Source: Henckelia pumila (lineage: Eukaryota; Streptophyta; Magnoliopsida; Lamiales; Gesneriaceae). Taken from it: a stretch of 64,000 bases of DNA. Of this stretch, positions 9,961 through 56,231 are shown piece by piece (position 1 is the first letter of the stretch; each line of letters starts with the position of its first letter). The DNA is taken from positions 159,665,753-159,729,752 of the forward strand of contig NC_133123.1 in NCBI RefSeq assembly GCF_033568475.1, read 5' to 3'. The notes beneath the pieces are model-generated. The model was given only the letters and a program-made list of their open reading frames with translations, had not been told where the DNA came from and did no database searches. A program made the position numbers and the translations under genes.

Positions 9961-10606
9961 CCGCGATACATTGAGATTATTGGATTTAGCTAGATTTAAT
10001 TAAACAGCTACTTTTTCACTCTTCAAAATGATAAATATTTAATGATTTAATTATTTTAAGTAACAAATATTCGATCATAAGTTTATTGCTTATTATTTAA
10101 CGGTGTATCTTAAATTGATATTTAGAATTCAGAAACCTGTAGATATTTTATGGACTTTCAATTTTTTTGTTAGAAAATTGAATCCAACTTCCTTGATTGA
10201 ATATAAAACTATTGCATTAAAAGAAATGAATTCAACTTCCTTTTATTAAATATAAAACTATTAATTTCTTGATGACTAAATGGACTCTTATCATTTTCAG
10301 AAATACAAAGGCTCCGTTTGATATCAAAAGGTGTTTGCATGACCATTTAAATATTTAAAAAAGTATTTTTTAAGTAAAATTTAAAGTTTTTTCAAAGCCC
10401 AAAATTAAAAATTAAAAATTAAAAAAGCACTTTTTAAAAATAAAAAAAAAATCTATGAAATTCAAACGAACTCAAAAACTCCATTGAACTTATACAAATA
10501 TAGATCGGATTTGAAATTCATCTAAATTGCGTTTAACTTGATAACAGATTTTAGTATATGATTATAAATAACTCATGTGGCGATGAACTTATTATTATTT
10601 TTAAAA
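9961..10606. other. AT-rich intergenic DNA
   Basis: No gene is seen. The stretch is homopolymer-rich. It includes a motif near 10311 (GGCTCCGTTTGATATC) resembling MITE ends, without a visible partner. It runs into the trinucleotide microsatellite beside the Tat-type retrotransposon. Confidence 0.4.
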
Positions 10607-10649
10607 TAATAATAATAACAACAACAACAATAATAATAATAATAATAAT
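10607..10649. repeat. (AAT/AAC)n microsatellite, left flank of the Tat element
   Basis: An AT-rich trinucleotide tract (AATAAT, ACAACA, then AATAAT repeats) ends exactly where the left LTR begins. Its last five bases, ATAAT (10645-10649), equal the five bases after the right LTR (20509-20513). The retrotransposon therefore seems to have inserted into this microsatellite. Confidence 0.8.
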
Positions 10650-11375
10650 TGATGATGGTTGTAAAACCAGGGTCCGGGCTATTAGGGTAGTGTTGTGGGC
10701 CTGACGTGGTGGCCGGGCTAATGGAAGTAATACATGAACTGCCCTTCCTTAATCAAGGTGATCTGCACACCAAAGAAGGGAATAAAAAGCACGTTAGTGG
10801 GACGCCGGAGGAAGTTCCGGCGGGGCCACTCTGATGCTTAAGTTAGACTTAGAAATAGAGTGGGCTTTTTAGAGAAAATGAGTATAGTGCTTTGGAAATT
10901 TAGGTGAACATACCTCTACAAATATCTGTGACCAGATATTTAAAGGCCTTGGAGTGAGAGTGTCACTCCGCAATTCCCGGGTAGTGGCCACGATCTGGAT
11001 CGTGGGTGTGGTAGTTGCTCATGTTTGCCTGTCATGTACGATGAACCCGGAAAGCTTGGGTTGGTGATAATCGTGGGGATCATGCCCTTAAAACACGGGC
11101 TTTATATAGTCCTGCAGACCTGGTTTTCCGGGCTCCTGAGGCTGCTGGGCTACCTTAATACGGCCCTACCACTCCGGGTCATTCGTGGCCCGGGCCTCCT
11201 GGCTTACCGGGACATCACTACTCATCCCAAAAATAGTCGGGCTAGAGTCTTAATCGCTGTCCCGACTTATAGTTCCGCCACCCTTGCTTTAATACAACCC
11301 TGTAATCCCTGACTCTTTATGTCCCTGTTCCCCGGGGCATATGTGGCCCTGCTCCCCTGTCTTGCCGGGGCATCA
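10650..11375 (-). repeat. 3' LTR of the Tat element (left copy)
   Basis: This copy is near-identical to 19782-20508. In element orientation it begins TGATGCCCCGG and ends CCATCATCA. The direct continuation beyond 11375 repeats a segment from inside the LTR (see 11376-11837). Confidence 0.92.
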
Positions 11376-11837
11376 CTACTCAGCCCAAAAATAGTCGGGC
11401 TAGAGTCTCACTCGCTGTCCTGACTTACAGTCCTGCCCCTGGCTGTTCAAAGCCTTGCTACCCCGGCCTTGTGGGTGTATCGTCCAGTAATGTCCAAAAA
11501 TTCTAGGGCTGACGTTAACCCTAGAATTTTGAAAAGACGGGCAGGTGTCAGAAGACGTTATCTGTCCTTTCGACTGCCCGCGTCATCATTACACTGCCCG
11601 GTTCAACTTCCCAAGATCATCCTTACCCTTCGATCATATTTTCATCTACGGTCAGCATTAAAGCTCTTCGCCTATAAAAACAAAACCCCCTTCCTTCACT
11701 TTTTCTTTACTTTTCCTATTCACGTATTCCCTCCCTGCTACTAAACTTCTCCGGCTCCGGCGACTCCGCGTAGCAAGCTTGCTTTCTTTTGTAAGTTTTC
11801 TGTCTATCTTACCTTAAAGTTTCCTTGTCCTTTGAAC
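11376..11837. other. Tat internal region: LTR-derived partial repeat, then leader of the antisense gene
   Basis: Bases from about 11371 to 11440 (CATCACTACTCAGCCCAAAA and onward) repeat the LTR-internal stretch at about 11212-11285. A piece of LTR is thus tandemly duplicated at the inner LTR edge. No classical polypurine tract stands out next to the LTR in element orientation; GGGCTGAGTAG is the nearest purine-rich run. The remainder holds the presumed promoter and 5' UTR of the plus-strand gene that starts at 11838. Confidence 0.6.
11673..11680 (+). promoter_or_regulatory. TATA box of the antisense gene
   Basis: TATAAAAA lies 158 bp before the ATG at 11838, inside the retrotransposon but outside its LTR. 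It suggests an independent promoter for the plus-strand spliced gene. The match is by sequence only. Confidence 0.55.
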
Positions 11838-14025
11838 ATGTCGAATTCCACATCTTCAACTTCCGGTGGCCACGTTCGTGGCTCTTTTGATATAGAATCC
11901 GAGGCCTTACGCCACGATTCTCCCCCGCCTGTCACCTCCCATGTCCAATCCCTAGTAGCTCCCTCCTCCTCTCATCCGAAGAAGGCTAAAATCGGGCCTT
12001 CTAAGGACAAGGGTAAGGCTAAAATATCCGACTCTGGGCCTCTCCTTCCTTTGCCCAAACCAAACCCCGAAAGTCCCTGGTTTTCCCACTTTACCAGTAC
12101 CCTCCGCCCAGAATCCATAGAGGAACTTAAGCTTATGGGTAACATTCCTCCGGCGTACTCGATTCTCATTCCGGGGCCCCTAGGCCGGGCTGACCAGCCG
12201 CCCGAGGGGTTCTATACCTTCTTCAGGGAAAAGCTCAGGAATGGGCTTCGTTTCCCTATTCATCCCTTTTATTATAAAATTGCTTCTTTTTACAAGGTTC
12301 CCTTGAACCAATTTCATCTCAATGCCTTCCGCATGATGGCTGCCACTTATGTTCTTTTCAAAGCGAACAACTTAGCCATCACCCCTCTCATCTTTCACTA
12401 CTATTATGCCTGCCGTTTCATGGAGATGGCTTTCTCTTTGAATGCCCGGCAGAATGCCCGGTTTCTAGATTATACCCCGTCCTCGTGGAAGGGATGGAAA
12501 GAGAGATTCTTTTATATTCAACTCCCTGGTGCCCGAACCAGACCTACCCAATTCTTGACGGCCCTTCCTCTTCAACCCGAGCTCCCTAAAAATTATAAGT
12601 TGGAGGAACCCTACCTCCGAACCCAAGAGCTAGTGGAAAACCAGAAGTTTCCTTCAGCCCCTCTCCTGGAGGAAAAAATTTTGAATGATTACGGGCTGGG
12701 TGCCCGGGTAACTGATCCGGTTGACCGGATTATTGATGCATATGATGAGTCGGCCCCAGTCCCTGGTATGCTTTACTGTTACCATGTATTTGCTTCTCTT
12801 ACAAACTGTTTGTAATGTACCGATTTTTATCATTTTTGCGCAGCATCCCCAGCCCCGCCTAAGAAGAAAAAATCTCGACTGATGAAGCAGGCCTTTGCTC
12901 AGAAACGGGCAGCCGAGAAGGCAGCTGCCCGGGAAAAGGAAGAAGCCAGGGCTGCAGTGGCAGCGAGAAAGGCCCGAGTCCTTCAACTAGCGGAGGAACG
13001 CAGGGCTCAACAAGGCCTAGGTGAGGAGGCTGCCACTGCAGTTGTCACCTCCGAGGTCGCCGCTCCTTCACCTTCTGTCGTACCCCTGCCATTTCCATCT
13101 GTGGAGGCAGGGTGGACGAATGAGCCGGCTCCTTCTGCTGCCGGTCCCTCCTCTCCTTTGACGCGGAAGAGGAAAACCATAGAGGAGCCAGAAATGGTCA
13201 TTCTTAGTAACCCAGAAGAGGTGGCTCCTTCCTCTCCCTCTTTCCCCCCATTGGCCCCCTTTTACCAGGCTGCCCAGGGATCTAGTCCCTTTGGTGCAAG
13301 GGAAAATATATTCCAAGCCGGGGCCTCTGGCCGGGGAGTGCGGATGTTGAAGGACCTTTTGACTTCTGCGGAGCAGCTCCACCTCTATAACCAAAACCCG
13401 ACCGTGAAGTATTTCGAGGGCACCAACCGGGTTATATCCGTAAGTTTACTTCTCCTAGTCTCGAACGTGTTCTGTTTTCTATTTCTAACACCTCTGCTTT
13501 CAGGGACTGCATATGCTGGTGGACAGCTATGAAGATGCGACCAAATTTGGTCGGATTAAGACTGATCGGGCACACGTAGAGGCTGAGAAGTCTCAGGCTG
13601 CCGCGGAGTTGATCAAAAAACTGGAACAAGACTTGATGATGGCACAACAAAGTCATGATCAAGCGACGTCTAGTCTCCGTTCAGCCCTGGAGGCAGCCGA
13701 GCAAGGTCTTCACTCTACTCAGCTAGACCGTGTCCGCTCTGAAGCTGATCTAGGGCAGGCTCGAGATGCTCTAGCCACCACTACGGGTGAGTTGAGGGCG
13801 GCTGAAAACCGAGCTGCAGAGGCTCAAGCTGAAGCGGCCAGTGCAAGGGATAAAGCGGAGAAAGCAGTGTCAGCTCTGGAAACTCGCCTGAAGTCAGAGG
13901 AAGAGCTCAAAGCAACCTTCCTATCTTCTGCTGAGTTTCAAGAGACAGTGGTAGATAGATCGTACACCTTTTTCCAGGTCGGATTTTACAAATGCCGAGA
14001 TCAATTCGAGGAAGCTGGCCTATAG
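11838..14025 (+). CDS. Spliced antisense ORF carried by the Tat element; 'putative gypsy type transposon' family protein with coiled coils
   Basis: Three exons are read on the strand opposite gag-pol: 11838-12765, 12844-13439, 13504-14025. Together they code 681 aa. The introns (78 and 64 bp) are short, have GT-AG ends, and both joins keep frame. The N-terminus is Ser/Pro-rich. Residues about 85-240 form a globular region with FYTFFREKLRNGLRFPIHPF and a WKGWKERFF motif. These recall the plant family Pfam calls 'Putative gypsy type transposon' (Transposase_28). Basic runs (KKKKSR near 317; RKRK later) could be nuclear signals. Ala/Glu/Arg-rich heptad-like stretches near residues 322-365 and about 545-650 predict coiled coils. 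No catalytic motif is visible and the biochemical role is unknown. Antisense extra ORFs have been reported in Tat-type elements. Unlike gag-pol in the same element, this frame has no internal stop. Confidence 0.85.
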
Positions 14026-14266
14026 TCTTCTGACAAGAGAGATTTTCCCGACTTGGATAAGGCCATCGACTCCCTCCCCGCCACCCAAGGAGCTGAAAAT
14101 GCGAAGGCTGCCCCGAGTCAGACAAATGCAGATGTCGGTCCCTCTAATAACCCCGCACTTTGAATTATTATTTGTAATTGGGCCGCAGGAGCCCCTCCTC
14201 TCATAATCTGTTGTCAATGGAACTTCTCTGTTCTTGTTATTCATTATTTAATGCCTGATATATATA

Positions 14267-14272
14267 AATAAA
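14267..14272 (+). terminator. Poly(A) signal of the antisense gene
   Basis: AATAAA lies about 240 bp after the stop codon at 14023-14025, just before the 70-bp tandem array. It fits a separate polyadenylated plus-strand transcript. Confidence 0.5.
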
Positions 14273-14281
14273 AGAGTAGGT

Positions 14282-14543
14282 AATGCCAAGGGCTTATATA
14301 TGCCTTGGGCTTACGATGGGTGCCGGGGCCTGGAACCTCCCGGGCTTATATAATGCCAAGGGCTTATATATGCCTTGGGCTTATGATGGGTGCCGGGGCC
14401 TGGAACCTCCCGGGCTTATATAATGCCAAGGGCTTATATATGCCTTGGGCTTATGATGGGTGCCGGGGCCTGGAACCTCCCGGGCTTATATATGCCTTGG
14501 GCTTATGATGGGTGCCGGGGCCTGGAACCTCTCGGGCTTATAT
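14282..14543. repeat. 70-bp tandem repeat array in the Tat element
   Basis: There are three full 70-bp units (starting at 14282, 14352, 14422) and a 53-bp partial unit. The units are nearly identical. Each holds two copies of GGGCTTATATA and an imperfect inverted repeat, CCAAGGGC...GCCTTGG, able to fold. The array sits between the converging ends of integrase (minus) and the antisense gene (plus). An open frame running through it is an artefact of the repeat. Confidence 0.95.
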
Positions 14544-14603
14544 AAAGCCAATCCTTCTTTCATGATAAAAATCCTTCATTAATAAAACATTAAATACAAA
14601 TCA

Positions 14604-15968
14604 TTACACAAAATACTTCTTCAAATGTAAAGCATTCCATGGTCGCTTGAGGGGGCGTCCCTGGCCATCTTGTAGGTACCAAGTATTGGCACCGACTTTT
14701 CTGATAACCTTATATGGTCCCTCCCATCGGGCATCTAGCTTCCCTACTTCCCCTGCTGGATTAACTCTTTTCAACACAAATTCTCCCTCTTGGAATTCCC
14801 GAGGTCTGACCTTCTGATTATAGGCTCTCATCACCCGAGCTCTGTAGGCCTCCATTCTACGAGCCGCCTTTTCTCTTCGTTCTTCAATGAGATCTAATTC
14901 TTGTGCCCGGGCTCCTTCGTCTGTGTCCTCATATGCTTTAATCCGAGCTGAAGGCTGTCCGATCTCTACAGGCAAAATAGCCTCCGACCCATATACCAGG
15001 CTAAAAGGTGATTCTTGTGTTGCAGTGTGTGGAGTGGTGCGATAGGCCCATAACACACTCGGGATCTCTTCAACCCAATCTTTCCCCATTCCATGCAATC
15101 GCGCCTGTAAAGACCGAACAATAGTACGATTGGTTACCTCTGTTTGGCCATTAGCTTGAGGATAGGCGACCGAGGTGAAAACCTGCTTAATGCCCATCTC
15201 AGCACACTAGTCTGCCAATTTTTGGCCCTGAAATTGCCTGCCATTATCCGAGACCAGCTTTCTTGGTAGCCCAAATCGACATACTATGCTTTTCCATAAA
15301 AACTTCATCACCTCGGCCTCTGTTATTTTCGCCAAAGGCTCTGCCTCCACCCACTTGGAAAAATAATCAACAGCTACCAACAAGAACTTCTTCTGTGCCC
15401 GGGCTAGTGGAAAAGGTCCCACTATGTCCAGACCCCATTGATCAAAGGGGCAGGATGCCCATATCGGATTCAAGTTGCTTGTCGGGCTATGTTGTATATT
15501 TCCGAACCTCTGACATCCTTCACAAGACCGGAAAATCTTGGATGCGTCTGCCTGCATAGTTGGCCACCAATATCCTGACAGCAACACCCTTCGGACCAGA
15601 CTCATAGACCCTCCATGGTTTCCACAACATCCCTCGTCCACTTCCCGCAAGACATATTCGGTTTCTCCTTCCCCCAAACATTTGAGCAAAGGGCCCTGGT
15701 AGGAACGCCTATACAGGCTTCCTCCCAAGATAGCAAACCTGGCTTCCTGTCTTCATATGATCCGGGCTCGTCCTTTGTCCTCCGGGAGGTTCCCCTGAGT
15801 TAGGTACTTGACAATCGGGGCTTTCCATGTGTTTACTTGGAGGACCGGCTCCCAGGCTTCTATGGCAGCCACCGTTTCCCTTTGCAGAAGGGATTCTCTA
15901 CTACCACCTTCCCCCGCGGCCGCTCTTTTAGCCAAGGCGTCTGCTTCCATATTTTCTTCCCGGGGTAT
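14604..15968 (-). pseudogene. Tat integrase region, interrupted by in-frame stops
   Basis: This is the 3' part of pol in the same frame as the RT block, cut by a TAG at 15969-15971, a TGA at 15753-15755 and a TAG at 15207-15209. The zinc-binding segment shows GNHGG and CEGC, but the usual first His position reads Asp (EVDEG). The catalytic core is recognisable (DIVGPF, SDNGRQF, and Glu in GQTEVTNR). The C-terminal part ends normally at 14604 with a basic, SH3-like tail (WEGPYKVIRK). No chromodomain is present, as expected for Tat. Confidence 0.88.
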
Positions 15969-18572
15969 CTACTCTATACTCCAAGTGTTGAAACTGGCCC
16001 CGAGCTCTTCAATCATCTTACAATATTTTATCAATTTCTCCTCTCGAGTACAGAAGGTTTTGTTTACTTGTTGAACAACCAACTGAGAGTCAGAATAAAT
16101 TATGATATGACTTACCCCGACATCCCGGGCTTGTTGCATCCCCGCTATCACAGCCTCGTATTCAGCTTCGTTGTTGGAAGCCTGGAAGTCTAGATTCACG
16201 GCTATCTCAATCTTCTTTTGGGCAGGTGAGATCAGGATGATCCCCACACCACTGCCTCCAGCACCACTTGCTCCATCTACAAAAACCCTCCATACTTCCT
16301 CTCGGCCAAAAACGGCCACCTCTGTCAAAAAATCCGATAAAGCCTGGGCTTTGATGGCCTTACGTGGCTGGTACTCAATATCATATTCTTCTAATTCCAC
16401 CGACCATTTCACGAGTCTTCTCGAGGCATCTGGATGAGTCATAATACGCCCCAGGAGGCTATTAGTAAGAACAGTTACCGGGTGAGACAAGAAATAAGGT
16501 CTCAATTTCCGGGTCGTTATTACTAGAGCCAAGGACATCTTCTCAATTTCCGTATATCTAACTTCCGCCCCCTTCAAAGCATGGCTGACGTAGTACACAG
16601 GCCTCTGATCTCCCTTTTCCTCTTTTATCAAGATAGTGCTGACCGCCTTTTCTGTAGTGGATAGATATATCAACAATCGTTCCCCTGGTTCCGGCTTAAC
16701 CAAGATAGGCAAGCTAGCCAGATGCTCCTTCAACTCCTGAAAGGCCTGCTCGCATTGCTCAATCCAGCCGAACCTCTGGGCTTTACGCAACACTTGGAAA
16801 AAATGATAGCTGCGATGAGCTGATCGAGCTATAAATCGGGCCAGGGCTGTAATCCGGCCGGTTAATCGCTGTACCTCCTTAATGGATGTTGGTGAAGGCA
16901 TTTCCCGCAACAGCTTCACTTTTTCAGGGTTGACTTCTATCCCCCGTTCAGTGACCATGAACCCCAGAAACTTGCCACTTTTCACCCCAAACATACACTT
17001 AGCCGGGTTCAATTTGATCCCATATCGCCGAACTGTCGCAAAAGTTTCCTCCAAGTCGGGTAAGAAACTATCCTGGGTCCTGGACTTCACCAATATATCA
17101 TCCACATATACCTCCACATTTCGGCCCACCTGTTCCCGGAACACTCTGTCCATCATCCGCTGATACGTAGCTCCTGCATTTTTCAAACCAAATGGCATCA
17201 CTACGTAGCAGAAAGTACCTCTCGAGGTGACAAAGCTGACTTTGTCTTGATCTTCCAAGGCTAAAGGAATTTGATGATAGCCCTGGTATGCATCCATGAA
17301 GCTCAGCAACTCACACCCGGATGTGGAGTCCACCAATTGGTCAATTCGGGGTAGAGGGTAACAATCTTTGGGACAGGTTTTATTTAAATCCCGAAAATCC
17401 ACACACATTCTCCACTTCCCCGTGGCCTTTGGTACTAGCACTACGTTGGACAACCAAGTAGGAAATTGTATTTCCTTGATGTGCCCGGCCCGCAGTAGCT
17501 CTTGAACCTGCTCCGCTATCACCTTATCCTTCTCGGCCCCAAAATGCCTCTTCTTTTGTAGGACAGGTCGGGAACCTGGGCTAATGTTTAGTTTGTGTTC
17601 TGCCACCCGAGATGAAACTCCCACTAAATCACCCTGAGCCCAGGCGAACACATCCTTATTCTGAATGAGGCAACCTCTCAATGCTTCAATCAACCATGCG
17701 TCTAAATCCCGAGCTATTTTAACAGACTTCCCTGTTTGCCCGGGCTCCATCTCTACCTCTTCATACTCGCTCTTAGATTCCTCCACCGAACAGACTTCTC
17801 TTCCCCCCAAGGCTCCTACCTTTCCATTCTGTTTTGCCCTCTTGTAGTCTATCTTCACTGTCTTGGCATAGCATTTTCGAGAGGAAGGCTGATCTCCTCG
17901 AACTTCTCCGACCTTATCTCCCACTGGGAACTTGATCTTTTGATGGTAAGCTGAGGCTACGGCTTTGAAAGAGTTCATAGCCGGCCTACCCAAGATGACA
18001 TTATAGGAAGAAGGTGCTTCCACTAATGTGAATCTTGTCATGACCGTCCTCTTCTCATCTCCTGATCCCAAGGTGATAGGCAGCAACATTTCTCCTTGGG
18101 GTTGGACAGTGTGCCCGGCAAAACCATACAAGGCGGTTTTTACCGGGCTCAACTCATACCCTTGCAAATCCATCTGCTCGAATGCTTCTTGAAAAAGGAC
18201 ATTCACTGAGCTTCCCGAGTCAACGAACACCCTTCGAACATCATAATTGGCGATCCGAGCTTGTATAAGCAAGGCGTCATTATGGGGTAAGTTTACTCCC
18301 TCCAGGTCTTGGGGTCCAAATGTGATGATTGGCCCCGCCCCCTGCCTTCCTTCCTCCACCCCTAAGCTTTCCCTCCGACTCCAGGCCTTCCTAGCCCGGT
18401 TGGAATCTCCATCCGTAGATCCTCCCGATATCATGTTAATGATACCTTTGTCCGGCCCATCCCCAGATGTTTTGTCTTTTTTTGCATGATCCATTTCTTG
18501 TTTTCCTTTTTCCCGAGAGCTGGTGGCATCCCGGGGAGGAATCGACGTCTGTGACCCCCGAAACCAAGGCAC
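15969..18572 (-). pseudogene. Tat pol: protease, reverse transcriptase, RNase H and second RNase H
   Basis: The frame is open over 867 codons but lies in a different frame from gag, and a stop at its end separates it from integrase. In order: protease with FVDSGSSVNVLF; RT with MPFGLKNAGATYQRMMDRVF and the YVDD active site; the standard RNase H region after RT; then a second, archaeal-type RNase H (RVFVDGASG, NNEAEYEA, IYSDSQLVV). Dual RNase H is characteristic of Tat elements. The first Met (18572) lies in the gag overlap and is probably not a real start; expression would be from a gag-pol fusion in an intact copy. Confidence 0.92.
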
Positions 18573-19741
18573 GCTTCGGGGCTTTTTGGGACCGGCCTAC
18601 CATCTCTAGCATAAGGCAGTTGGTGTCTTTGCTGCAGAGTTCGACACTCACTGGTGTCATGAGTGCACTCTTGATGAAGTGCACAGTACTTCCAGAGCTT
18701 CTCCTTAGAAACAGGGGTCTGTGTGTCGACCCTTTCTTCACACATATGAACAGCCTTATCTCGGGTCCCTCGGTACGGAGCATACCGGGACAATCGCCCC
18801 ATGGGATCATGGTTCTCTCTACTTCTTCCTTGTTCCCGGCCTCCCTCCCGCCGGGCCACCTCCTTTTTCTGCCTCTGAGCTTCCTCCATGTTAATGTATT
18901 TTTCAGCCCGAGCCAGCAAATCTTCGAAGGTCCGGGGTGCTTTTTTCACCAGTGATTTGAAAAATTCCCCCTCCCGAAGACCTTGAGTGAAAGCCGTGAT
19001 CTTGGTCTCCTGGGCACAAGTCGGGACCTCCAAAGCAATTTTGTTAAACCTTTTGATATAGGTTCTTAAAGACTCCTCTCCTGACTGCTTTGCTTCAAAA
19101 AGGCTATAGGCAGTTTTCCTATACCTCTTGCTACTGCCGAAGTGCTGCAAAAACACTTGCTTGAATTTTGCAAATGATTGAACACTCTGGGGCTCCAACT
19201 TCTCAAACCATCTTTGGGCAGAATCCACCAAAGTGGTTAGGAAGACTTTGCATTTGATCTTATCTCCATAGCAATGTAACATGGCTACATTTTCAAACCG
19301 AGCCAGGTGCTCCTCTAGGTCTGTGCTCCCATCGTATTCCCGGATTTTAGCCGACTTGTAATTTAGTGGCAAGGGTTCCTCTATCACCTCCTGTGAAAAA
19401 GGGCAACCCGGAATTTTGATAGGGCAAGCCATTTGGGAACCCCCCTCCTCCAACTTCTGTACCTTCCTCCTGAGCTCATGCAACTCATCTGCCATGGACG
19501 GCTGTATTGAGTGCATCCAAGAGCTTTCTTCTTCTTCTCCTTGTTGAACCTGGGCAATAGGGTTTGGATTACCCTGATTTCCTTCTTCCTCCACTGTTAT
19601 GTCCTTTGATTGTGGCTGCTTTGCAGCTATCAACGACTTCCGTACCACATCTTGGACAAATGATTCTAACTGCTCCAAGGGAATGGTAATATTCCGCCCT
19701 GGCTGATGGTCTCCAGGTAATGTTTGATCATGAGAAGCCAT
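18431..19741 (-). CDS. Tat gag
   Basis: 436 codons from the ATG at 19741. It contains a retrotrans_gag-like segment (RWFEKLEPQSVQSFAKFKQ and later TYIKRFNKIALEV). The C-terminal end after about 18600 appears to be in the wrong frame relative to pol, which overlaps it by 142 nt. A small indel near the gag/pol junction is likely. No zinc knuckle of CCHC form was recognised. The start lies 25 bases inside the primer-binding site. Confidence 0.88.
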   Translation of the reverse strand: MASHDQTLPGDHQPGRNITIPLEQLESFVQDVVRKSLIAAKQPQSKDITVEEEGNQGNPNPIAQVQQGEEEESSWMHSIQPSMADELHELRRKVQKLEEGGSQMACPIKIPGCPFSQEVIEEPLPLNYKSAKIREYDGSTDLEEHLARFENVAMLHCYGDKIKCKVFLTTLVDSAQRWFEKLEPQSVQSFAKFKQVFLQHFGSSKRYRKTAYSLFEAKQSGEESLRTYIKRFNKIALEVPTCAQETKITAFTQGLREGEFFKSLVKKAPRTFEDLLARAEKYINMEEAQRQKKEVARREGGREQGRSRENHDPMGRLSRYAPYRGTRDKAVHMCEERVDTQTPVSKEKLWKYCALHQECTHDTSECRTLQQRHQLPYARDGRPVPKSPEACLGFGGHRRRFLPGMPPALGKKENKKWIMQKKTKHLGMGRTKVSLT

Positions 19742-19765
19742 ATCTACGTCTATAGAACAAGCTTT

Positions 19766-19780
19766 CCACAGACGGCGCCA
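19766..19780 (-). other. Primer-binding site of the Tat element
   Basis: In element orientation the sequence TGGCGCCGTCTGTGG follows the 5' LTR after one spacer base. The TGGCGCC start is the usual plant Ty3/gypsy tRNA-primed site. The tRNA species was not assigned. Confidence 0.8.
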
Positions 19781-19781
19781 A

Positions 19782-20507
19782 TGATGATGGTTGTAAAACC
19801 AGAGCCCGGGCTATCAGGGTAGTGTTGTGGGCCTGACGTGGTGGCCGGGCTAATGGAAGTAATATATGAGCTGCCCTTCCTTAATCAAGGTGATCTGCAC
19901 ACCAAAGAAGGGAATAAAAAGCACGTTAGTGGGATGCCGGAGGAAGTTCCGACGGGGCCACTCCGATGCTTAAGTTAGACTTAGAAATAAAGTGGGCTTT
20001 TTAGAGAAAATGAGTATAGTGCTTTGGAAATTTAGGTGAACATACCTCTACAAATATCTGTGACCATATATTTAAAGGCCTTGAAGTGAGAGTGTCACTC
20101 CGCAATTCCCGGATAGTGGCCACGATCTAGATCGTGGGTGTGGTAGTTGCCCATATTTGCCTGTCACGTACGATGAACCCGGAAAGCTTGGGTTGGTGAT
20201 AATCGTGGGGATCATGCCCTTAAAATACGGGCTTTATATAAGTCCTGCAGACCTGGTTTTCCGGGCTCCTGAGGCTGCTGGGCTACCTTAATACGGCCCT
20301 ACCACTCCGGGTCATTCGTGGCCCGGGCCTCCTGGCTTACCGGGACATCACTACTCATCCCAAAAATAGTCGGACTAGAGTCTTAATCGCTGTCCCGACT
20401 TACAGTTCCGCCACCCTTGCTTTAATACAACCCTGTAATCCCTGGCTCTTTATGTCCTTGTTCCCCGAGGCATATGTGGCCCTGCTACCCTGTCTTGCCG
20501 GGGCATC

Positions 20508-20508
<1 letters not shown>
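19782..20508 (-). repeat. 5' LTR of the Tat element (right copy)
   Basis: Pairs with 10650-11375, with TG...CA ends. It is followed on the right by ATAAT and a long AAT microsatellite. It carries the TATA-like TATATAAAG on the minus strand at 20232-20240. Confidence 0.92.
20232..20240 (-). promoter_or_regulatory. TATA box in the Tat 5' LTR
   Basis: TATATAAAG on the minus strand lies about 270 bp into the 5' LTR. It is the only clear TATA motif there and would start the gag-pol transcript. Its left-LTR counterpart carries a 1-bp deletion. Confidence 0.5.

Positions 20509-20561
<53 letters not shown>
20509..20561. repeat. (AAT)n microsatellite, right flank of the Tat element
   Basis: Roughly 17 AAT units directly follow the right LTR. 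They continue the tract at 10607-10649 that the retrotransposon interrupted. Confidence 0.9.
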
Positions 20562-21425: not shown

Positions 21426-21797
21426 TATTTAATTATGATTATCATTATATGCATGGCATCATTATCATGAATTTTTATTCAACATATACTCGATTTTTTT
21501 TTACCCTCAACGGTCACAAACGGCTAGTTTTTGGCCTATAAATATGTTCACTCAGACTTATTTTCAATCACACCAAAATTCACTCTTTCTCTCAAAATAT
21601 TTTTACTCGATTTTTCGAAGATGGAGATGATGGCATTTATAAGGCTATTTTCATAACGATTATGATCATCATGCTCACGAGTCTTGTACTCACCAGCGAT
21701 TTTCCACCACATACTTTTTATCTATTTGTATACGCACTTGTAATTTTCATTTTTCCATTATTTTGTATTGTCATATTAATGAAAATTAACTAATAAA

Positions 21798-22853
21798 ATG
21801 CATTGTTATTTTTCTAGTACCACCATGTCAAACTTGGCAAAGCTTGAATTCGTTGCACTCGATATCACTGAAAAAAATTATATGACATGGACTCTTGATG
21901 TTGAGATGCATCTTGAGTCATTGGGTCTAAGTGAAAGCATTAAAAAAAATAATATATCAACCTCACAAGATAAAGCAAAAACTATGATTTTCTTGCGCCG
22001 ACATCTTGATGAAGGGTTGAAATGTGAGTATCTCACAGAAAAAGACCCAATGACTTTATGGAAAGGGCTGAAAGAAAGATTTGAGCATATAAAGAAAGTG
22101 ATACTCCCGACCGCCCGTGATGAATGGAATACGTTGAGATTCCAAGACTTTAAAAAAGTCAGTGATTATAATTCTACGATGTATCGAATAGTCTCGCAAT
22201 TAAAATTCTGTGGACTTGAAGTCACAGAGATGGAAATGCTTGAGAAAAAATTTTCCACTTTTCACGCATCGAATATAACTCTACAACAACAGTATAGAGT
22301 GCGTGGATTTTCGAGATATTCCGAACTAATTGCATGTCTTCTTGTGGCGGAAAAGAACAACGAATTGTTAGTAAGAAATCATCAATCCGAACCCACTGGA
22401 TCAACGGCATTTCCTGAAGAAAATGTCGTAATGAAAAATGAAAACCAAAATCAAAGGAATAGACCAGATTTTGGTCGTGGACGAGGTCGAGGACGTGGAC
22501 GTAGAAATGACCGTGGTCGTGGACGCGGTCGTGGATATGAAAATAATCGAGATAGTTATTTCAGTAACTCATCTCAAAAGAGCGTCACGCACCACCCACT
22601 AAAAAGGCAGCATGAAAACATGAGTGAAAATGAAAATTACTCAAAAATAACCGAGAGTGTTTGTTATAGATGTGGCACTCCGGGACATTGGTCACGAACT
22701 TGTCAAGCCCCCGAGCACCTTTGTAAGCTCTATAAAGAATCGATAAAGGGGAAAGGAAAAGAGACCAATTTTGTTGAAAATAGTGACCATTTAATTGGTT
22801 CAACTAGTTTCAGTGCTGCAGATTTTTTGAATGATTTCGAAGACATTGATTAA
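21798..22853 (+). CDS. Copia gag
   Basis: 351 codons. A second ATG at 21825 (MSNLAKLEF) is the more likely start by family resemblance. The N-terminal part resembles the copia gag/UBN2 fold (NYMTWTLDVEMHL, FLRRHLDEGL). An Arg/Gly-rich stretch (GRGRGRGRR) precedes one zinc knuckle, CYRCGTPGHWSRTC (CX2CX4HX4C), that would bind RNA. The frame is intact. It ends about 130 bases before the protease frame, which is different, so gag and pol are separate ORFs or joined by a recoding or splicing event. Confidence 0.93.
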   Translation: MHCYFSSTTMSNLAKLEFVALDITEKNYMTWTLDVEMHLESLGLSESIKKNNISTSQDKAKTMIFLRRHLDEGLKCEYLTEKDPMTLWKGLKERFEHIKKVILPTARDEWNTLRFQDFKKVSDYNSTMYRIVSQLKFCGLEVTEMEMLEKKFSTFHASNITLQQQYRVRGFSRYSELIACLLVAEKNNELLVRNHQSEPTGSTAFPEENVVMKNENQNQRNRPDFGRGRGRGRGRRNDRGRGRGRGYENNRDSYFSNSSQKSVTHHPLKRQHENMSENENYSKITESVCYRCGTPGHWSRTCQAPEHLCKLYKESIKGKGKETNFVENSDHLIGSTSFSAADFLNDFEDID

Positions 22854-22978
22854 AAGATTGGTGGGACTAGATTGTAATAAATTTGTATTTTTTATGCATT
22901 TTTGTATTATAAAGCATGTTATATTTTACATTTGTATTGTACTTAATTTTTTTTTATTACATTTTTGTGAAGTTTGAT

Positions 22979-24577
22979 ATGGAAAATGCTATGAGCAAAC
23001 ATGGAAATAATATCATGGAAATTTGCATACCGGATAGTGGTACAACGCACACTATTCTGCGAGATGAAAGATATTTCTTGGAACAAAAACCAACAAAAAC
23101 AATGGTAAATACAATATCAGGTCCTGTAGACTTGATTGAAGGTTTTGGTAAAGCGAAATTTTTGTTACCTAATGGTACAAAAATTTTGATAAATGATGCT
23201 TTATATTCACCACGATCGAAAAGAAATTTGTTGAGTTTTAATGACATATATTCTCATGGGTATGATATCGAGACAATGACTGATGGAAATCAGAAATATA
23301 TGTGTCTTAACACATATAAGTCAGGAAAGAAATTTGTTGTTGAGAAACTACCAATGCTCCCTACTGGATTGCATTATACACATATAAGTCCAATTGAATC
23401 AAATATGGTAATAGATAATTCATCAATATTAACAAATTGACATGATCGATTGGGACATCCTGGTTCAACAATGATGCGAAGAATTATTGAAAATACACAT
23501 GGTCATCCACTGAAAGACCAGAAGATCTTTCAGAATAATAAGTTTTAATGTAAAGCATGTTCACTTGGAAAACTTATTATAAGACCATCACCAGCTAAAA
23601 TCCAAACTGAATCACCCATATTTCTTGAACGTATTCATGGTGATATTTGTGGGCCAATTCATCCACCATATGAACCATTTCGATACTTTATGGTATTGAT
23701 CGATGCCTCTAGCAGATGGTCACATGTATGCTTATTGTCAACTCAAAATGTGGCATTTTCAAGATTGATGGCTCAAATAATAAAATTGCGAAATCAATTT
23801 TCCGATTATACAATCAAGAAAATAAGACTTGATAATGCTGGAGAATTTACATCCCAGACTTTCAATGATTATTGTATGTCAATGGGAATCACTGTTGAAT
23901 ATCATGTAGCTCATGTTCATACGCAAAATGGATTAGCTGAATCATTGATTAAACGTCTACAACTGATTGCTAGACCAATGATTATGAAAACAAAACTCCC
24001 TATTTCTATATGGGGACATGCAATTTTACATGATGTGGCATTAATTCGCATCAGACCAAGTGCATATCATAAATTCTCCCCATTGCAACTTGCATTTGGT
24101 AAAGAACCAAATATCTCTCATCTAAGAATTTTTGGATGTATGGTGTATGTGCCTATTGCACCACCTCAACGATCAAAAATGGGTCCTCAAAAAAAAATTG
24201 GTATTTATATCGGTTATGATAGTCCATCAATCATTCGATATCTTGAGCCTCAGACAAGCGATGTGTTTACAGCACGCTTTGCTGATTGTCATTTTAATGA
24301 AGAAATATTCCCAGTGTTAAGGGGAGAAAAGAAACACATCGAAAAAGAAATCACATGGTATGTACCATCATTGTTACATTTGGATCCAAGGACCAAACAA
24401 TGTGAAAAAGATGTACAGCAAATTGTACATTTGCAAAGAATAGCAAATCAAATGCCAGATGCATTTGCAGACACAAAAGGGGTGACAAAATCATATATAC
24501 ATGCTGTAAATGCCCCAACTCGAATTGAAATTCCAAAAAACAGATTGAAGACACTTATGATGTCATTAAACGCCTGA
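22979..24577 (+). pseudogene. Copia protease, GAG-pre-integrase and integrase with two in-frame stops
   Basis: The likely pol start is the ATG at 22979. Protease is recognised by IPDSGTTHTIL. The zinc-binding GAG-pre-integrase segment (HDRLGHPG ... CKACSLGKL) contains a TGA at 23438-23440 and a TAA at 23546-23548. The integrase core follows with DASSRWS, LDNAGEFTS and the catalytic Glu in QNGLAES. At the A-run 24535-24541 a one-base change shifts the frame, ending this block at 24577. The RT block continues in another frame. Confidence 0.9.
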
Positions 24578-26463
24578 AGCGTGGAAGGCCAGTCGGTTCC
24601 AAGGATAAAAATCCTCGGAAAATAAAAGGCATAGAGAAGCACGATGATCATAAAATAGAAAATGGTGTTCCAGAAGAAACACCTGATGATGAAAATGTTC
24701 TGTCAGAACCACAAACTGACGAGAATCGTGAAATCTCAATCAATTATATTAATACTGGAAAAATATGGAACCGAAAAGACATAGAAGATATTGATGAGAT
24801 ATTTTCTTATAATGTGGCTTGTGACATCATAAATGAAAATGAGGATCATGAACCAAAATATTTTGGTGAATGTAAAACTCGTCATGATTGGGCCAAATGG
24901 AAAGATGTCATCCAGGTTGAATTGGATTCGCTGAATAAACGTAATGTTTTTGGACCTATAGTCCTCACACCTGAAGGTGTAAAACCTGTTGGATACAAAT
25001 GGATTTTTATTCGAAAGCGAAATGAGAAAAATAAAATAGTCAGATATAAAGCTAGACTTGTTGCACAAAGTTTTTCTCAAAGGCCTGAAATTGATTATGA
25101 AGAAACGTATTTTCCTGTTATGGATGCAATTACGTTTCGATATTTGATTAGTTTGGCAGTGTCTGAAAATTTGGAAATGTGTCTTATGGATGTTGTTACA
25201 GCTTACTTATACGGATCACTTGATAGTAATATATACATGAAAATCCCTGAAGGATTTAAGATGCCTGAAGCACAAAGTTCAAAACCCAGAGAATTTTATT
25301 CTGTAAAATTGCAAAGATCATTATATAGGTTGAAGCAATCAGGCCGAATGTGGTATAATCGGCTAAGTGATCACTTGATGAAAAAGGGATATGTAAATGA
25401 TCCAATATGCCCTTGTGTTTTCATCAAGAAAACAACATCCAGATGTGTAATTATTGCTGTATATGTTGATGATTTGAACATCATTGGAACGAATAAAGAA
25501 ATTCAAGAAGTTATGATGTACTTGAAAGAAGAATTTGAAATGAAGGATCTTGGAAAAACCAAGTACTGTCTGGGTTTGCAAATCAAACAAAAAGAATGTG
25601 GAATTTTTGTTCACCAGGCAAATTATACAGAAAAGATCCTTAAACGTTTTAATATGGATAAATCAAATCCATTAAGTACTCCAATGGTTGTAAGATCATT
25701 AAACATAGAAAAGGATCTATTCCGTCCATGTGAGGATGATGAAGTTATTCTTGGTCCAGAAGTACCATATCTAAGTGCTATTGGTGCCCTTATGTATCTT
25801 GCAAATTGCACTAAACCTGATATATCTTTTGATGTAAATTTATTGGCAAGATTCAGTTCATATCCAACAAAGAGGCACTGGAACGAAATTAAACATATAT
25901 TCCGTTATCTACGAGAAACGACAGATTTGGGACTTTTGTACTCAAAAGACACCAATCAAAGTATCATTGGTTATGCTGATGCTGGATATTTATCTGATCA
26001 ACATAAGACACGTTCCCAAACCGGATATGTATTTACTCGTGGAGGCACCGCAATTTCTTGGCGTTCACAGAAACAAACACTCGTAACAACTTCATCAAAT
26101 CACGCCGAGATTATTGCATTACATGAAGCAAGTCGTGAATGTGTGTGGTTAAAATCAATGACACAACATATCCAAACTTCTTGTAGATTATCAGTAGACA
26201 AGAAGCCTGTGACGTTGTATGAAGACAATGCTGCATGTATTTCTCAAATGAAAGAAGAATACATCAAAAGTGATAGAATCAAACATATCCCCCCAAAGTT
26301 CTTTGCCTACACTCAAGAGCTTGAGAAGAATAAAGATATTGATATCTGTTACATTCAATCAAGTGAGAAGAACTCATCAGATCTCTTCACAAAGGCACTT
26401 CCCACGACGATATTCAGAAAGCATATATACAACATTGGGATGGGCAATCTATGGAATATGTGA
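24542..26463 (+). pseudogene. Copia reverse transcriptase and RNase H
   Basis: Frame open from about 24556 to 26463 after the upstream frameshift. RT motifs: GYKWIFIRKRN, YKARLVAQ, and the catalytic YVDD (VYVDDLNIIG). RNase H motifs: ADAGYLSDQHKTRSQTGY, SSNHAEIIAL, LYEDNAACI. The C-terminus ends normally near the polypurine tract. There is no internal stop, so only the join to integrase is broken. Confidence 0.93.
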
Positions 26464-28264: not shown

Positions 28265-31200
28265 ATGTCCTCTAAAGAAACCTGCCGTACCGAGCTTCGC
28301 GCCGCCGTCCGCCACCTCAGTGACCGTGGCCTATACACAGCTTCCAAATGGTAAAGCATTTAACGGCTTCAAAAACCCATCTTTTTTTTTTTTCAATTGA
28401 AGGATCCCGATTAGTTAAAAGGCCCAGTCTTTTCTGTCTGGTTTTTATGATTCTTGATTTCTTCAGGGCAGCGGAGCAATTGATGGGAATAGAACAAGAC
28501 CCTTCAAAGCACACCCCGTCACACACCAGATTCCAGCGTGGCAGCTCCAGCATCCGTCGTCGCTTTCGGAGCACTAATGCCGGAGATTCATCGGCCACCC
28601 CTTCTGCCGGGATGTCGTATGTTGCCACGCCGACAATGATGGGGATGGAAGAGTATGATTATGATCCGATTGACGGTGATATTTATCTGCTGGCAAAGTC
28701 TTACTTTGACTGCAGGGAGTATAGGAGGGCTGCTCACGTGCTACGGGATCAGACTGGGAAGAAAGCAGTATTCTTGCGCTGCTACTCTCTATATTTGGTT
28801 GGTTTCTGACTTAAACGTGGGCATCGTTTGTTTTTTGATTGTTGCTTTGCATGTTGGTTGATTGAACTTTGGCTGTTGCTTGAACTAATAGTTCAAACCT
28901 TTTTGAAGAAATGAGAATTTGAATTCTCCATTATGCAATTCCTAAGCTTTTAAATTTCAAGCAACCAGTAAAGGGGTGGCTCATGTCTGGTTTTCTAATG
29001 CTACACTCAAGCCTTAGCATTTTGAACTTGAGTGTGTTGTATTTATTAATTTAGTATCCTTACGGGTTGATTTAACCTATTCAGATCATTCTAGGAATTT
29101 GAGATGCTCTGGAAATGATTATTTGTCCTCTAACCCTTATTCTGTGTCAATTTTAGTATCAACAGACGTTAAATAAAATGTGAGTTGAAGGGTAGTTTTT
29201 GTTTCTTAGATTGTGGTAGATGACTCAACACAAGCAATCGATTTTCTGAAAGTACCCTCCAGTATATTTCGGGGTGTAGATGGGGTGTTTAGCTGCTTCA
29301 TGCTTAGGTTAAATGAATGGGCATTTAGATCTGATTCTTTGTTTGCAGATACGTGTCTTGTGGATCAGTATATCTAATGAGACTTTTTGTGGAAATACCA
29401 ATATTGCGTTAGCTTTTTACATTTTTACTATTGAATCGGAAGAGATTTTCATTTGGTACTTCGATATGTATGAATATTGAAAATATCTTTTGATTTCATC
29501 TGAGCATTTCATCGGGTTCCAAAAGCATCACTTTGGATGAGCAAATCAATGGTCTTCTGTAAAGCATAGGAGATTGACATTTTTTTCTGTTACTTATCTT
29601 TCCTGTGCGAAAGGAAGGAGGAGGCAACGATGCTTGTGCTTCATTTTGCTTTAACAGTTAGCTTGCATGTATTCCTTCGAAGTTCTGCTTGAACATTTTT
29701 TCTAATTGTAAATACAATAAGACAAACATATGATTGAAGATTCATGCGGAGGAAATAATAGAAACTTTTGATTTTGGAACTCATATGATTAATGTTATAT
29801 AAGGGTAGATAACAACATTAATCATCGTGTTGTGAATATTTGTGTACTTTTCGCTTTTCTTGTTGTGCATTCATGCTGCAGTAAATGCATATAACCAGCA
29901 ACACTGCTTGATGCAATATCAGATCATGTTAAAATCCTGAGAACGCAGAATTATGGGGAAAAAAACTGGAAAGTGGGAACAAGAAATCCATGTAAATTAT
30001 GGCAAAAAGTGTTAAACAAGAAGATTTTGAATGGTACCTCAAAAGAACCTCTGTAAGTAGTGAGACAAGAAAGCTCATTTCTATTTTAAAAACCGAAAGA
30101 GTTTTGCACATGGAATTTATGTACAAGTCGCTCATGCGATCATCTATCAATGTCCCATATGGTTATAATTAGCAATTCTTTGCATAAAAAAATGTTATAT
30201 GTAGATACTCATGCTCAGGGTGTTAAATTTTGACATTGGTACTCGAGCATTGAAATAGGATCTGACATATGAAAAGGAAGGAACGCAAACCCGGCCATAA
30301 GATTTTGCTTTGGCACTCTTCGGTCTGTGCTCCTGTTGGCCAAAATGATCAGTGAGATTTGGGAAAAGTAAATTCTTCTTGTTATTATGTGTTTGATCAA
30401 GTGACCACTATCTTATATCTCTCTATCTTGCCCACTCCCTCTCCCAACTCATTCTTAATATGTATCTGTGCCCATCATATATAAGTTTCTAACTGATGGC
30501 CTATTGGTGAAATCACAAGAAGTTCCTTAATCGAAGTTGTCAGGCTTTAAAGAAGTTATGCATGTTTGATGAGCATTGTCTGTTAGACCTTATGATTCAC
30601 CATGTAGAAGGTCAGGTTATTTGATATTTAACCAGTGGTGGCATGATCCTTTTTTCTTTTCTTTTCTTCTTTTTTATTATCTTAATTTGTTGAAATATTG
30701 TCCCACATTGGTAGGATATAGTACTGGGAGCCCTTAATATAGACAAAAGGCAATCCTCACCTCTTGAGCTAGCTTTTACGGTGAGTTAGGTCCAAGTCTC
30801 ATTTCTAATATGGTATCAGAGCCCAGGTCCTCCGTGTGTTGGATCGCCCATAATTGGGCTGCCTATAATTAGGCCAATCTTCAAGCTCCAGATGTTCATT
30901 CCAGGGCGTTTAAATCACCCGTTAATATCTCCACGCTCCAGATGTTCATTCCTGGGCGTGTGGGGGGTGTGTTGAAATATTGTCCCACATTGGTAGGATA
31001 TAGTACTGGGAGCCCTTAATATAGACAAAGGCAATCCTCACCTCTTGAGCTAGCTTTTGAGGTGAGTTAGGTTCAAGTCTCATTTCATTTCTAATATAAT
31101 TAAAGAGCTGGCATGATTTTAATTGCATGTTTACTCAACACGGACATAAGGCGTACAGAATGCTGATTGCTGCTATGAGGTTTTGGCAGTGTAACTTGTA

Positions 31201-32893
31201 TCTATTGTAACCAACGAACGGAAACGAAAACAATTTGGAGCAAGCATATGGGTCTTTGGTGTTAGGTTTATTTCTCTATGTGATTCTAACATGCATAATT
31301 ATTAACTATGATGGAAATTTCCAGCTGTTTGTGGTACTGGGCATTGCATACAAATGATCCTCTTTTTCCCATTATTAAATGTGCAGTGTGGCTGCATGAG
31401 CTGTATCATCTTACAAAAAGTTCTGTGTGTGTTTTATTTTCCGCAAAGGCTTGATTAAATTTTATTCACTTCCCTTTCTTAATGAAGGCCGGAGAAAAAC
31501 GGAAAGAAGAAGAGATGATAGAACTTGAGGGACCTTTGGGCAAGAGTGATGCTGTGAACCGAGAACTGGTTTCTCTTGAGAAAGAACTGTCAACACTGCA
31601 TAAAAATGGAACAATTGACCCTTTTGGTCTCTATGTGTATGGACTTGTACTCAAGGAGAAAGGCAGTGGGGATATCGCTAGGTCTGTGCTTGCTGAGTCT
31701 GTGAATAACTACCCTTGGAACTGGAGTGCTTGGTCTGAGCTACAAGTATTGTGTACCACAAGTGAGGTATTAAATACTCTTAATCTCAATAATCACTGGA
31801 TGAAGGACTTTTTCCTTGCCAGCGCTTACCAAGAACTCCGGATGCTTAATGAATCCTTGGCAAAGTATGAATATTTACAAGGAACATTCACTTGCAGCAA
31901 TTACATCCAAGCCCAAGTAGCTAAAGCTCAATATAATCTCAGGGAGTTTGAACAGGTGGAAATTATATTCGAAGAACTCTTAAGAAACGATCCTTACAGG
32001 ATTGAAGATATGGATATGTATTCCAATGTGCTCTATGCCAAGGAATGTTTCTCGGCGTTGAGTTATCTTGCCCACCGAGTGTTCTTGACTGATAAATACC
32101 GACCTGAGTCATGCTGCATAATTGGGAATTATTACAGTTTGAAAGGGCAGCATGAAAAGTCGGTTGTGTATTTCCGTAGGGCTCTTAAACTGAATAAGAA
32201 TTACTTATCAGCATGGACTCTTATGGGCCACGAGTACGTGGAGATGAAGAACACCTCAGCTGCAATTGATGCCTATCGAAGGGCAGTAGATATAAATTGT
32301 TGTGACTTTAGAGCTTGGTATGGATTAGGCCAAGCATATGAAATGATGGGAATGCCCTTTTATGCACTTCATTATTTTAAAAAATCAGTGTTCTTGCAGC
32401 CAAATGATTCTCGGTTGTGGATTGCAATGGCTCAGTGCTATGAAACCGAGCAACTTCATATGCTCGAAGAAGCCATCAAATGCTATAAACGAGCAGCAAA
32501 TTGCAATGACAGGGAAGCCATTGCTCTCCACCAGTTGGCGAAGCTTCACTGTGAACTTGGACAGACCGAAGAGGCAGCATTTTATTACAAGAAGGATTTA
32601 GAGAGAATGGAGGCTGAAGATAGGGAAGGGCCCAATATGGTCGAAGCATTGATGTTTCTTGCTCAACATTGTAAAAACCAGGAGAAATTTGATGAAGCAG
32701 AACTTTATTGCGCTCGTCTTCTTGACTATACTGGGCCGGTAAGTTATATTAGATTGTGTGCTTTATGTTACTTGTGCATTGTGAATTGTGATTCTCATTG
32801 CTTCATCGCTTTTGTGTGCAGGAGAAAGAGACTGCTAAGAATCTTCTTCGAGGAATAAGATACTCGAGAGATGTTGAGCATTTCCCTCCTTAA
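28265..32893 (+). CDS. APC8: Anaphase-promoting complex subunit 8 (CDC23)
   Basis: APC8 is a TPR scaffold subunit of the APC/C ubiquitin ligase, acting in the nucleus to drive mitotic exit. Four exons: 28265-28350, 28467-28797, 31488-32738, 32822-32893. They total 1740 nt (579 aa). All joins keep frame and use GT-AG. An N-terminal CDC23-type segment (TRFQRGSSSIRRRF, DGDIYLLAKSYFDCREYRRA) precedes an array of tetratricopeptide repeats. Clear examples are YRPESCCIIGNYYSLKGQHE, WTLMGHEYVEMKNTSAAIDA and WYGLGQAYEMMGMPFYALHY. It ends HFPP, like the Arabidopsis protein (EHFPI, from memory). Intron 2 is unusually long (2690 bp) and contains a TRIM retrotransposon. Its acceptor (TTAATGAAG) lacks a strong pyrimidine tract. 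Confidence 0.97.
30688..31096 (+). mobile_element. TRIM (terminal-repeat retrotransposon in miniature) in APC8 intron 2
   Basis: 409-bp element with two near-identical LTRs, 30688-30810 (123 bp) and 30970-31096 (127 bp). Each starts TGTTGAAATATTGTCCCACA and ends CTAATA. Between them lie the primer site TGGTATCAGAGC (30811-30822), about 145 bp without an ORF, and a G-rich tract (TGGGGGGTG). A perfect 5-bp target duplication, TAATT, flanks it (30683-30687 and 31097-31101). The internal part holds two copies of GCTCCAGATGTTCATTCC. Being non-coding, it must have used enzymes from another element. Confidence 0.95.
30811..30822 (+). other. Primer-binding site of the TRIM
   Basis: TGGTATCAGAGC, complementary to the 3' end of initiator Met tRNA, directly follows the left LTR. 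Confidence 0.9.
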
Positions 32894-34399: not shown

Positions 34400-34945
34400 C
34401 TACACCCGCTGCTGGGACAAGAGAACAAGAAGCCCCTGCGGGCCGACCAATATCTCACTAAGAAAACTGACCAATCCAAACCAGACAACTGGGGTGACAT
34501 CGACTCCACCGAGAGGCGGAATCAGCTTCCTTGTCTGAACAAGAAGTGGCTCCGTCGGAGCGTACGCCACGACGTAAGGGAACTTGTCGACGGGCAACTT
34601 GGGATACCAAGACATGACTATCCTCAAAATGAAAAGGAACCCGAATGCAGAGAAAAACGGGCCTAAGAACCCGATTGCTAGCTTTGCTGTAGCAGGGTCC
34701 AAATCCATCAACACCAGTGTTTCCAGAAATGGAGGGCGTGGAATCTTGGAGACTTCATGTCCGCTGATTGAAGGGTCTGTGGATAAGGTTGAAAAGGAGG
34801 AAAGAAGAGGGTGATTGGAGGGGGAAGATGAGGGGGTTCCTAAAGAACATCGTGCTCTGAATTTGCGTGGAAATCTTGGGATCTGGTACGTTGTTGGAGT
34901 GGATTCTAGGATTCCGACAGCAGCAGCAGTAGATAGACAATACAT
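34400..34945 (-). CDS. CCB3: Plastid YggT/YlmG-family membrane protein, probably CCB3 (cytochrome b6 haem assembly)
   Basis: Single exon, 181 aa, from the ATG at 34945. A Ser/Thr/Pro-rich N-terminus of about 75 residues looks like a plastid transit peptide. The mature part has two hydrophobic segments, LAIGFLGPFFSAFGFLFILR and VVWFGLVSFLSEILVGPQGL. Between them is the YggT signature SWYPKLPVDKFPYVVAYAPT followed by EPLLVQTRKLIPP. In Arabidopsis, CCB3 helps attach haem c(n) to cytochrome b6. Assignment to CCB3 rather than another YlmG paralogue rests on remembered similarity (DLDPATAKLAIGFLGP). A partial copy of its 3' end lies about 0.9 kb away. Confidence 0.88.
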   Translation of the reverse strand: MYCLSTAAAVGILESTPTTYQIPRFPRKFRARCSLGTPSSSPSNHPLLSSFSTLSTDPSISGHEVSKIPRPPFLETLVLMDLDPATAKLAIGFLGPFFSAFGFLFILRIVMSWYPKLPVDKFPYVVAYAPTEPLLVQTRKLIPPLGGVDVTPVVWFGLVSFLSEILVGPQGLLVLLSQQRV

Positions 34946-56226: not shown

Positions 56227-56231
56227 GTCGT

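Follow-up and report, generated by a model that had tools for sequence, protein, structure and literature searches.

A predicted three-exon antisense gene of a Tat/Retand-type LTR retrotransposon in Henckelia pumila evolves under purifying selection at the family level

An LTR retrotransposon in the genome of Henckelia pumila (Gesneriaceae) hosts a gene on the plus strand, opposite to gag-pol, whose three exons join in frame to 681 codons. Related copies in the same genome show that its protein is under purifying selection at the family level, i.e., in the propagating lineage. We consider it probable that this is an antisense accessory gene of a Tat/Retand-type element, with a transcription unit of its own. 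The window, by which we mean the whole stretch of DNA analysed, comprises 64,000 nt (GCF_033568475.1, NC_133123.1, positions 159,665,753-159,729,752, forward strand). Its relevant features are given below, copies being counted among 30 loci of the family including the window.

10650-11375, minus strand: 3' LTR; 23 differences from the other LTR at 726 aligned sites, 21 of the 23 being transitions
11672-11681, plus strand: TATA-like box for the antisense gene; all 30 copies have the core CTATAAA
11838-12765, plus strand: exon 1, with the TRP28 (PF04195) region at amino acids 130-188; ATG at 11838 in 30 of 30 copies
12766-12843, plus strand: intron 1, 78 nt, phase 1, GT-AG; length kept in 30 of 30 copies, GT in 29 and AG in 29
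12844-13439, plus strand: exon 2, with a basic NLS-like start (KKKK at amino acid 316), as read from the sequence
13440-13503, plus strand: intron 2, 64 nt, phase 0, GT-AG; length kept in 30 of 30 copies, GT in 29 and AG in 30
13504-14025, plus strand: coiled-coil-like exon 3, ending with the TAG private to the window; this stop in 1 of 30 copies
14026-14163, plus strand: 45 extra in-frame codons and a TGA at 14161; few variants and no sign of constraint
14267-14272, plus strand: AATAAA poly(A) signal; in 29 of 30 copies
14281-14544, no strand: tandem array (unit of 70 nt) in the gap where the antisense gene and pol converge
14604-18596, minus strand: pol (RT, RNase H, integrase), with three in-frame stops
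18431-19810, minus strand: gag frame (PF03732, E 4.8e-17)
19782-20508, minus strand: 5' LTR, pairing with the LTR at 10650-11375

The element reads in sense on the minus strand, where paired LTRs enclose gag, RT, RNase H and integrase in the order typical of Ty3-gypsy elements. We infer the lineage name Tat/Retand from the antisense TRP28 gene, which lies between pol and the 3' LTR as Retand accessory genes do, and from the long region between pol and the 3' LTR. This region (14604 to 11375) measures about 3.2 kb and falls inside the range of 2,933-6,566 bp that PMC11963269 gives for Retand elements. The gag frame extends to 18431 and overlaps pol, which starts at 18596, in another frame; this may be natural or a lesion alike. 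Just inside the 3' LTR, the stretch 11376-11460 resembles an inner part of the LTR, and by eye no clear polypurine tract is seen there. The element was inserted in an (AAT)n microsatellite (10605-10649 and 20508-20560), and since this flanks it on both sides a target site duplication cannot be delimited.

Several neighbours were noted in passing. By eye, a Ty1/copia-like retrotransposon occupies 21783-26463 on the plus strand near the Retand element, with four open frames (gag with a zinc knuckle, integrase, RT and RNase H). A second Ty3/gypsy-like element, likewise judged by eye, lies at 45888-49502 and 56199-56810 on the plus strand; what seems to be its integrase end follows some 6.7 kb downstream, as though an insertion had separated the two parts. 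At 28324-32858 (plus strand), open frames of TPR-like sequence are perhaps the host gene APC8/CDC23, and the open frame 34400-34963 (minus strand) may encode a YGGT-family plastid protein.

The putative transcription unit would start from the TATA-like box just inside the 3' LTR, contain two introns and use a poly(A) signal of its own. It would run toward pol and end short of the tandem array lying between the two genes, and its mRNA would be spliced and translated. An earlier note on this DNA, made from the letters alone, had described much of this anatomy, and here it proved right: exons, both GT-AG introns and the 681 codons are exact to the base, and the TATA at 11673 and the AATAAA at 14267 are both present. 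The three stops it counted in pol are located at 15969-15971, 15753-15755 and 15207-15209, all in frame. Two of its statements were not confirmed. For the frameshift attributed to pol no sign was seen between 18596 and 14604, where a single frame is held, the three stops aside; and the antisense frame is not intact and stop-free, as the TAG at 14023 is private to the window and 29 of the 30 copies have no stop there.

Evidence for selection comes from copies of the same family. A search of the genome (884.7 Mb, 133 contigs) with the antisense gene gave 312 first-look candidates, 40 of which were scored; the 39 besides the window are 94-98% identical. The 30 loci analysed are those of the 312 candidates most like the window. 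Read by the exon coordinates of the window, 12 of the 30 copies are open to the normal end, and in one of these 12 the intron 1 donor is changed. Intron lengths are constant in all 30 copies and the length of exon 1 varies in seven, too few events to interpret.

We call a variant private if it occurs in one copy and shared if it occurs in two or more, and count stops together with nonsynonymous changes (N) against synonymous ones (S). Private codon variants of the 30 copies show N:S 288:130 (2.22), near the neutral expectation of 2.49, and shared variants show 92:123 (0.75; Fisher p 3e-10 against private). The difference persists when CG and CHG transitions are left out (62:92 shared against 197:100 private, p 1.5e-7), and transversions alone, with fewer variants, give 1.26 against 2.83. 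Stops account for 15 of 418 private variants and 1 of 215 shared ones (p 0.016). Expressed as the ratio of shared to private N:S, the drop amounts to 0.43 in the N-terminal 75 codons of exon 1 (p 0.13, not significant alone), 0.33 in the rest of exon 1, 0.33 in exon 2 and 0.23 in exon 3. The tail at 14026-14163 gives 1.33 (10:3 shared, 25:10 private, p 1). The ratio is 0.50 in the 12 open copies and 0.30 in the remaining 18, and it ranges from 0.24 to 0.52 across 200 subsamples of 20 of the 30 copies each.

As a control, the same counts were made in each of the other five reading frames. In four of them the shared N:S exceeds the private one, and there is no drop; the drop recurs in mirror frame -2, whose third codon positions are the same, but this frame holds 35 stops in 726 codons. 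The introns are no clean neutral yardstick, as they carry fewer shared variants per site (0.127) than third codon positions (0.177), and eight splice-site bases make too small a sample for selection on splicing as such to show. Shared variants are mostly silent and private ones near-neutral; therefore selection keeps the protein in the propagating lineage and not in the window copy.

The window copy itself undergoes neutral decay, with a private early stop. Its private codon changes comprise 14 nonsynonymous, 4 synonymous and 1 stop, which does not differ from the other private changes (p 0.45) but does from the shared ones (p 0.003). The idea that this copy is preserved by selection is thus rejected, given its private stop and neutral-like private changes. 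The loss may be mild, because the tail beyond the stop at 14023 gives no sign of constraint, on few variants, and the stop comes just after a C-terminal motif that the window has in common with the two other families described below (B and C). Pol was compared in 10 copies, several of them incomplete at the piece ends, and gave N:S 17:65 for shared and 124:66 for private variants; for the antisense gene, these 10 copies gave 37:78 and 134:69 (shared pol against shared antisense gene, p 0.10). Both genes are therefore constrained, pol at least as much.

These counts divide what the earlier note had made of the gene. Selection on the protein is supported at the family level; the preservation of this particular frame next to a decaying pol is not, since the antisense copy of the window decays as well and constraint on pol across the family is no weaker. 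Missing intron conservation among related copies and a dN/dS near 1 had been named there as results that would speak against the idea. In the copies collected the introns are conserved, with their lengths kept in 30 of 30, and a dN/dS near 1 was not found.

The protein is related to TRP28, also known as Transposase_28, as had been proposed, although the window protein itself remains below threshold: it scores 19 bits against PF04195 (E 0.0017, profile positions 4-63 of 69) where the Pfam cut-off is 26.2. A genome search with PF04195 gave 797 first-look candidates, 150 of which were scored and 149 matched. We took the best 30 of the 797 as PF04195 loci, a sample that leans toward conserved copies. 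All 30 lie above the cut-off, and 26 of them match the window protein (about 25-38% identity, best E 4e-32, tblastn); two relatives score 40.2 and 35.4 bits. The coiled-coil and nuclear-type features expected from the earlier reading are present as sequence features, namely the NLS-like KKKK stretch and a heptad periodicity of the proline-free exon 3 that 20 of 2000 shuffles equalled. In profile searches against Pfam, exon 2 has no match and exon 3 has five sub-threshold matches only. Exon 1 matches nothing among PDB sequences up to E 1. Searches for relatives gave six stretches in viral contigs, none confirmed, none in a second viral contig search, four stretches in prokaryote genome contigs, none confirmed, and two plasmid records with a distant RT likeness only.

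Beyond the window's own family, the gene appears to be old: families B and C, each represented by one modelled copy, have it too, with identical intron phases. Exon 1 of the window is about 30% identical at the protein level to those of B and C (range about 25-38%). In 11 of the 26 loci examined the motif that marks the exon 1 end could be located, and in 9 of these 11 a clean phase 1 GT...AG intron follows homologously; L003 and L014 have the motif but one changed splice site each. Three loci were modelled in full. The model of L004 (family B) is free of stops, with introns of 79 nt (phase 1) and 101 nt (phase 0); that of L022 (family C) has introns of 86 nt (phase 1) and 72 nt (phase 0) and one in-frame stop; the three-exon model of L003 failed and was dropped. 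The junctions fall on alignment columns 352 and 551 in both B and C and on 319 and 558 in the window. Because the alignment is weak at the window junctions, our argument for a common origin rests on the order of the exons, on phase and on the flanking motifs. The window, L004 and L022 are homologous at the end of exon 3.

An automated scan for intron 1 proposed a candidate in 13 of the 26 loci, all in phase 1, and was set aside for its non-homologous sites. Its donor lies upstream of the homologous one in L002, L003, L004, L009 and L014 (by 24 nt in L004), and its acceptor is non-homologous in L006, L014 and L023. The intron 2 scan of 10 loci had the homologous phase 0 intron as best candidate only in L022, L003 and L004, and other candidates or none in the remaining loci.

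The placement antisense to pol holds in all three families, as judged from one copy each of B and C. In L004, RT, RNase H and integrase adjoin the antisense gene on the opposite strand; in L022 the end of integrase does so. Between the window and family C the integrase end is 55% identical and exon 1 about 25-35%, the antisense protein being the faster-changing of the two between families. Arrays were also seen 5' of the antisense gene, at 2433-2660 in L022 and 2209-2413 in L004; the unit of the L022 array may belong to the LTR, because it is also present at 1649-1851 in L071. For exon 1, dN/dS was computed in 18 loci and 76 pairs. The 14 family C pairs with dS > 0.7 give 0.04-0.09, seven closer family C pairs 0.10-0.53 and 55 family B pairs 0.16-0.58.

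How two introns may persist in an element that moves through RNA is suggested by what the genome holds. Patterns for the two spliced junctions, allowing up to three mismatches, had 0 and 0 matches, against 84 for the unspliced boundary of exon 1 and intron 1. With this tolerance the search covers copies that differ from the window by three mismatches at most, and no processed copy was found near the window family. This fits a copying of the element from its sense RNA, where antisense introns would not be recognised and would thus survive.

As to its role, the gene product is probably a nuclear accessory factor that acts for the element. The basis is the composition of the protein together with what has been published for other elements: the TRP28 region, the KKKK stretch, the heptad-periodic, proline-free exon 3 and the precedent of maize Grande gene23 all point this way. 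With less support, the protein may act in trans on element DNA in the nucleus, perhaps at the neighbouring arrays, and might thereby favour expression or integration of its own family.

The arrays raise the question whether the protein could be an anti-silencing factor in the manner of VANC, binding the element's own repeats and removing host silencing. VANC is associated with motif arrays. In our family, an array with units of at least 15 nt stands beside the antisense gene in 30 of 30 copies, with a longest period of 70 in 25 of them, and the one piece each of B and C examined carry pol-side arrays that differ from the window's; moreover, exon 1 (25-38% between families) changes faster than integrase (55%, window against C). 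This is what such a factor might look like, but arrays at this place may merely mark the end of convergent genes, and we regard this role as unlikely. The action of VANC in Arabidopsis VANDAL transposons is mentioned in PMC11728184. A wider proposal joins this role to the gene structure: the antisense ORFs of Retand elements, be they TRP28 or labelled Smc-, TolA- or pol III-like, would be exons of one ancient spliced gene. The introns of this gene would be kept since copying uses the sense RNA alone. Its product would bind DNA and counter silencing in a family-specific way, in co-evolution with the tandem arrays next to it, and would be to LTR retrotransposons what VANC is to VANDAL elements. 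We put this proposal forward as a speculation that is quite unlikely to hold in full.

Alternatively, the antisense RNA rather than the protein might matter, pairing with the sense RNA to yield siRNAs or to block gag-pol, with the frame being incidental. The predicted transcript would overlap the full-length sense RNA, and other retrotransposons are described as restrained by antisense RNAs (PMC7264820, PMC12786077). A role of the RNA by itself predicts neither a constraint that follows the codons of the plus frame nor dN/dS values as low as the 0.04-0.09 of family C, and we give it little credence; a role of the RNA in addition to that of the protein may exist. It is highly improbable that the element passively carries a transduced host gene in antisense. 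Introns of this orientation are expected of a captured genomic gene, but the same gene and phases in divergent families and the selection within the element speak for an old, maintained element part, and PMC11963269 reports no TRP28 similarity outside transposable elements. Finally, an open frame with splice sites arising by chance is practically ruled out by the shuffles (none of 500 dinucleotide shuffles of the spliced sequence exceeds a stop-free run of 230 codons, against 681 in the real one), by the conservation and selection test and by the shared gene models.

The reading as an antisense accessory gene of the element bears on how such genes are treated. So far, those of Retand elements appear in lists as ORFs whose function is unknown. 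Should they turn out to be three-exon genes kept by purifying selection, then annotation, cloning and testing ought to aim at the full spliced protein and not stop at the exon that encodes TRP28. Introns that outlast repeated copying argue on genetic grounds, though less directly than RNA would, against the antisense message as the template of that copying. What stranded RNA-seq should show, and what Retand elements in other plants should contain, follows directly from the three-exon claim.

Antisense TRP28 genes of Retand elements as such are known already (PMC11963269, PMC7264820). According to Vicient 2025 (PMC11963269), antisense TRP28 (PF04195) ORFs are characteristic of Retand elements and occur in all clusters but two; TRP28 was assigned to 57 of 104 antisense ORFs, and others were labelled Smc-like and similar. 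Some of the latter may, in our view, be exons of the same gene. PMC6317226 gives Transposase_28 in 23% of Retand elements. The ORFs of PMC11963269 agree with the window in their position between pol and the 3' LTR, in orientation, domain and nearby tandem arrays. They were obtained with ORF Finder, in contrast to the window, where we describe one three-exon gene with phases shared between families and a selection test. The available text of PMC11963269 does not mention introns, selection or synonymous changes, and splicing and exons occur there only in the references. In the literature searched we found neither the split-gene structure, nor its sharing between families, nor the comparison of private with inherited variants.

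Among single elements, gene23 of maize Grande resembles the gene of the window, being placed in antisense between pol and the 3' LTR with a promoter upstream of the gene; its product is reviewed as a nuclear protein made from its own promoter (PMC7264820), and we liken the two by description only. Likewise by description, ORF4 of Silene Retand, which has a Transposase_28 domain, and rice RIRE2 have antisense extra ORFs like the window (PMC7264820). The partially spliced intron of Ogre also lies inside a plant Tat-type element (PMC6317226), but it interrupts the sense transcript of gag-pol, where it separates gag-protease from RT, whereas the introns of the window belong to the antisense gene. 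HBZ of HTLV-1 is an antisense retroelement gene with a nuclear product (PMC11963269); this is an analogy of working only, and in contrast to HBZ the TATA-like box of the window lies inside the element and not in the LTR.
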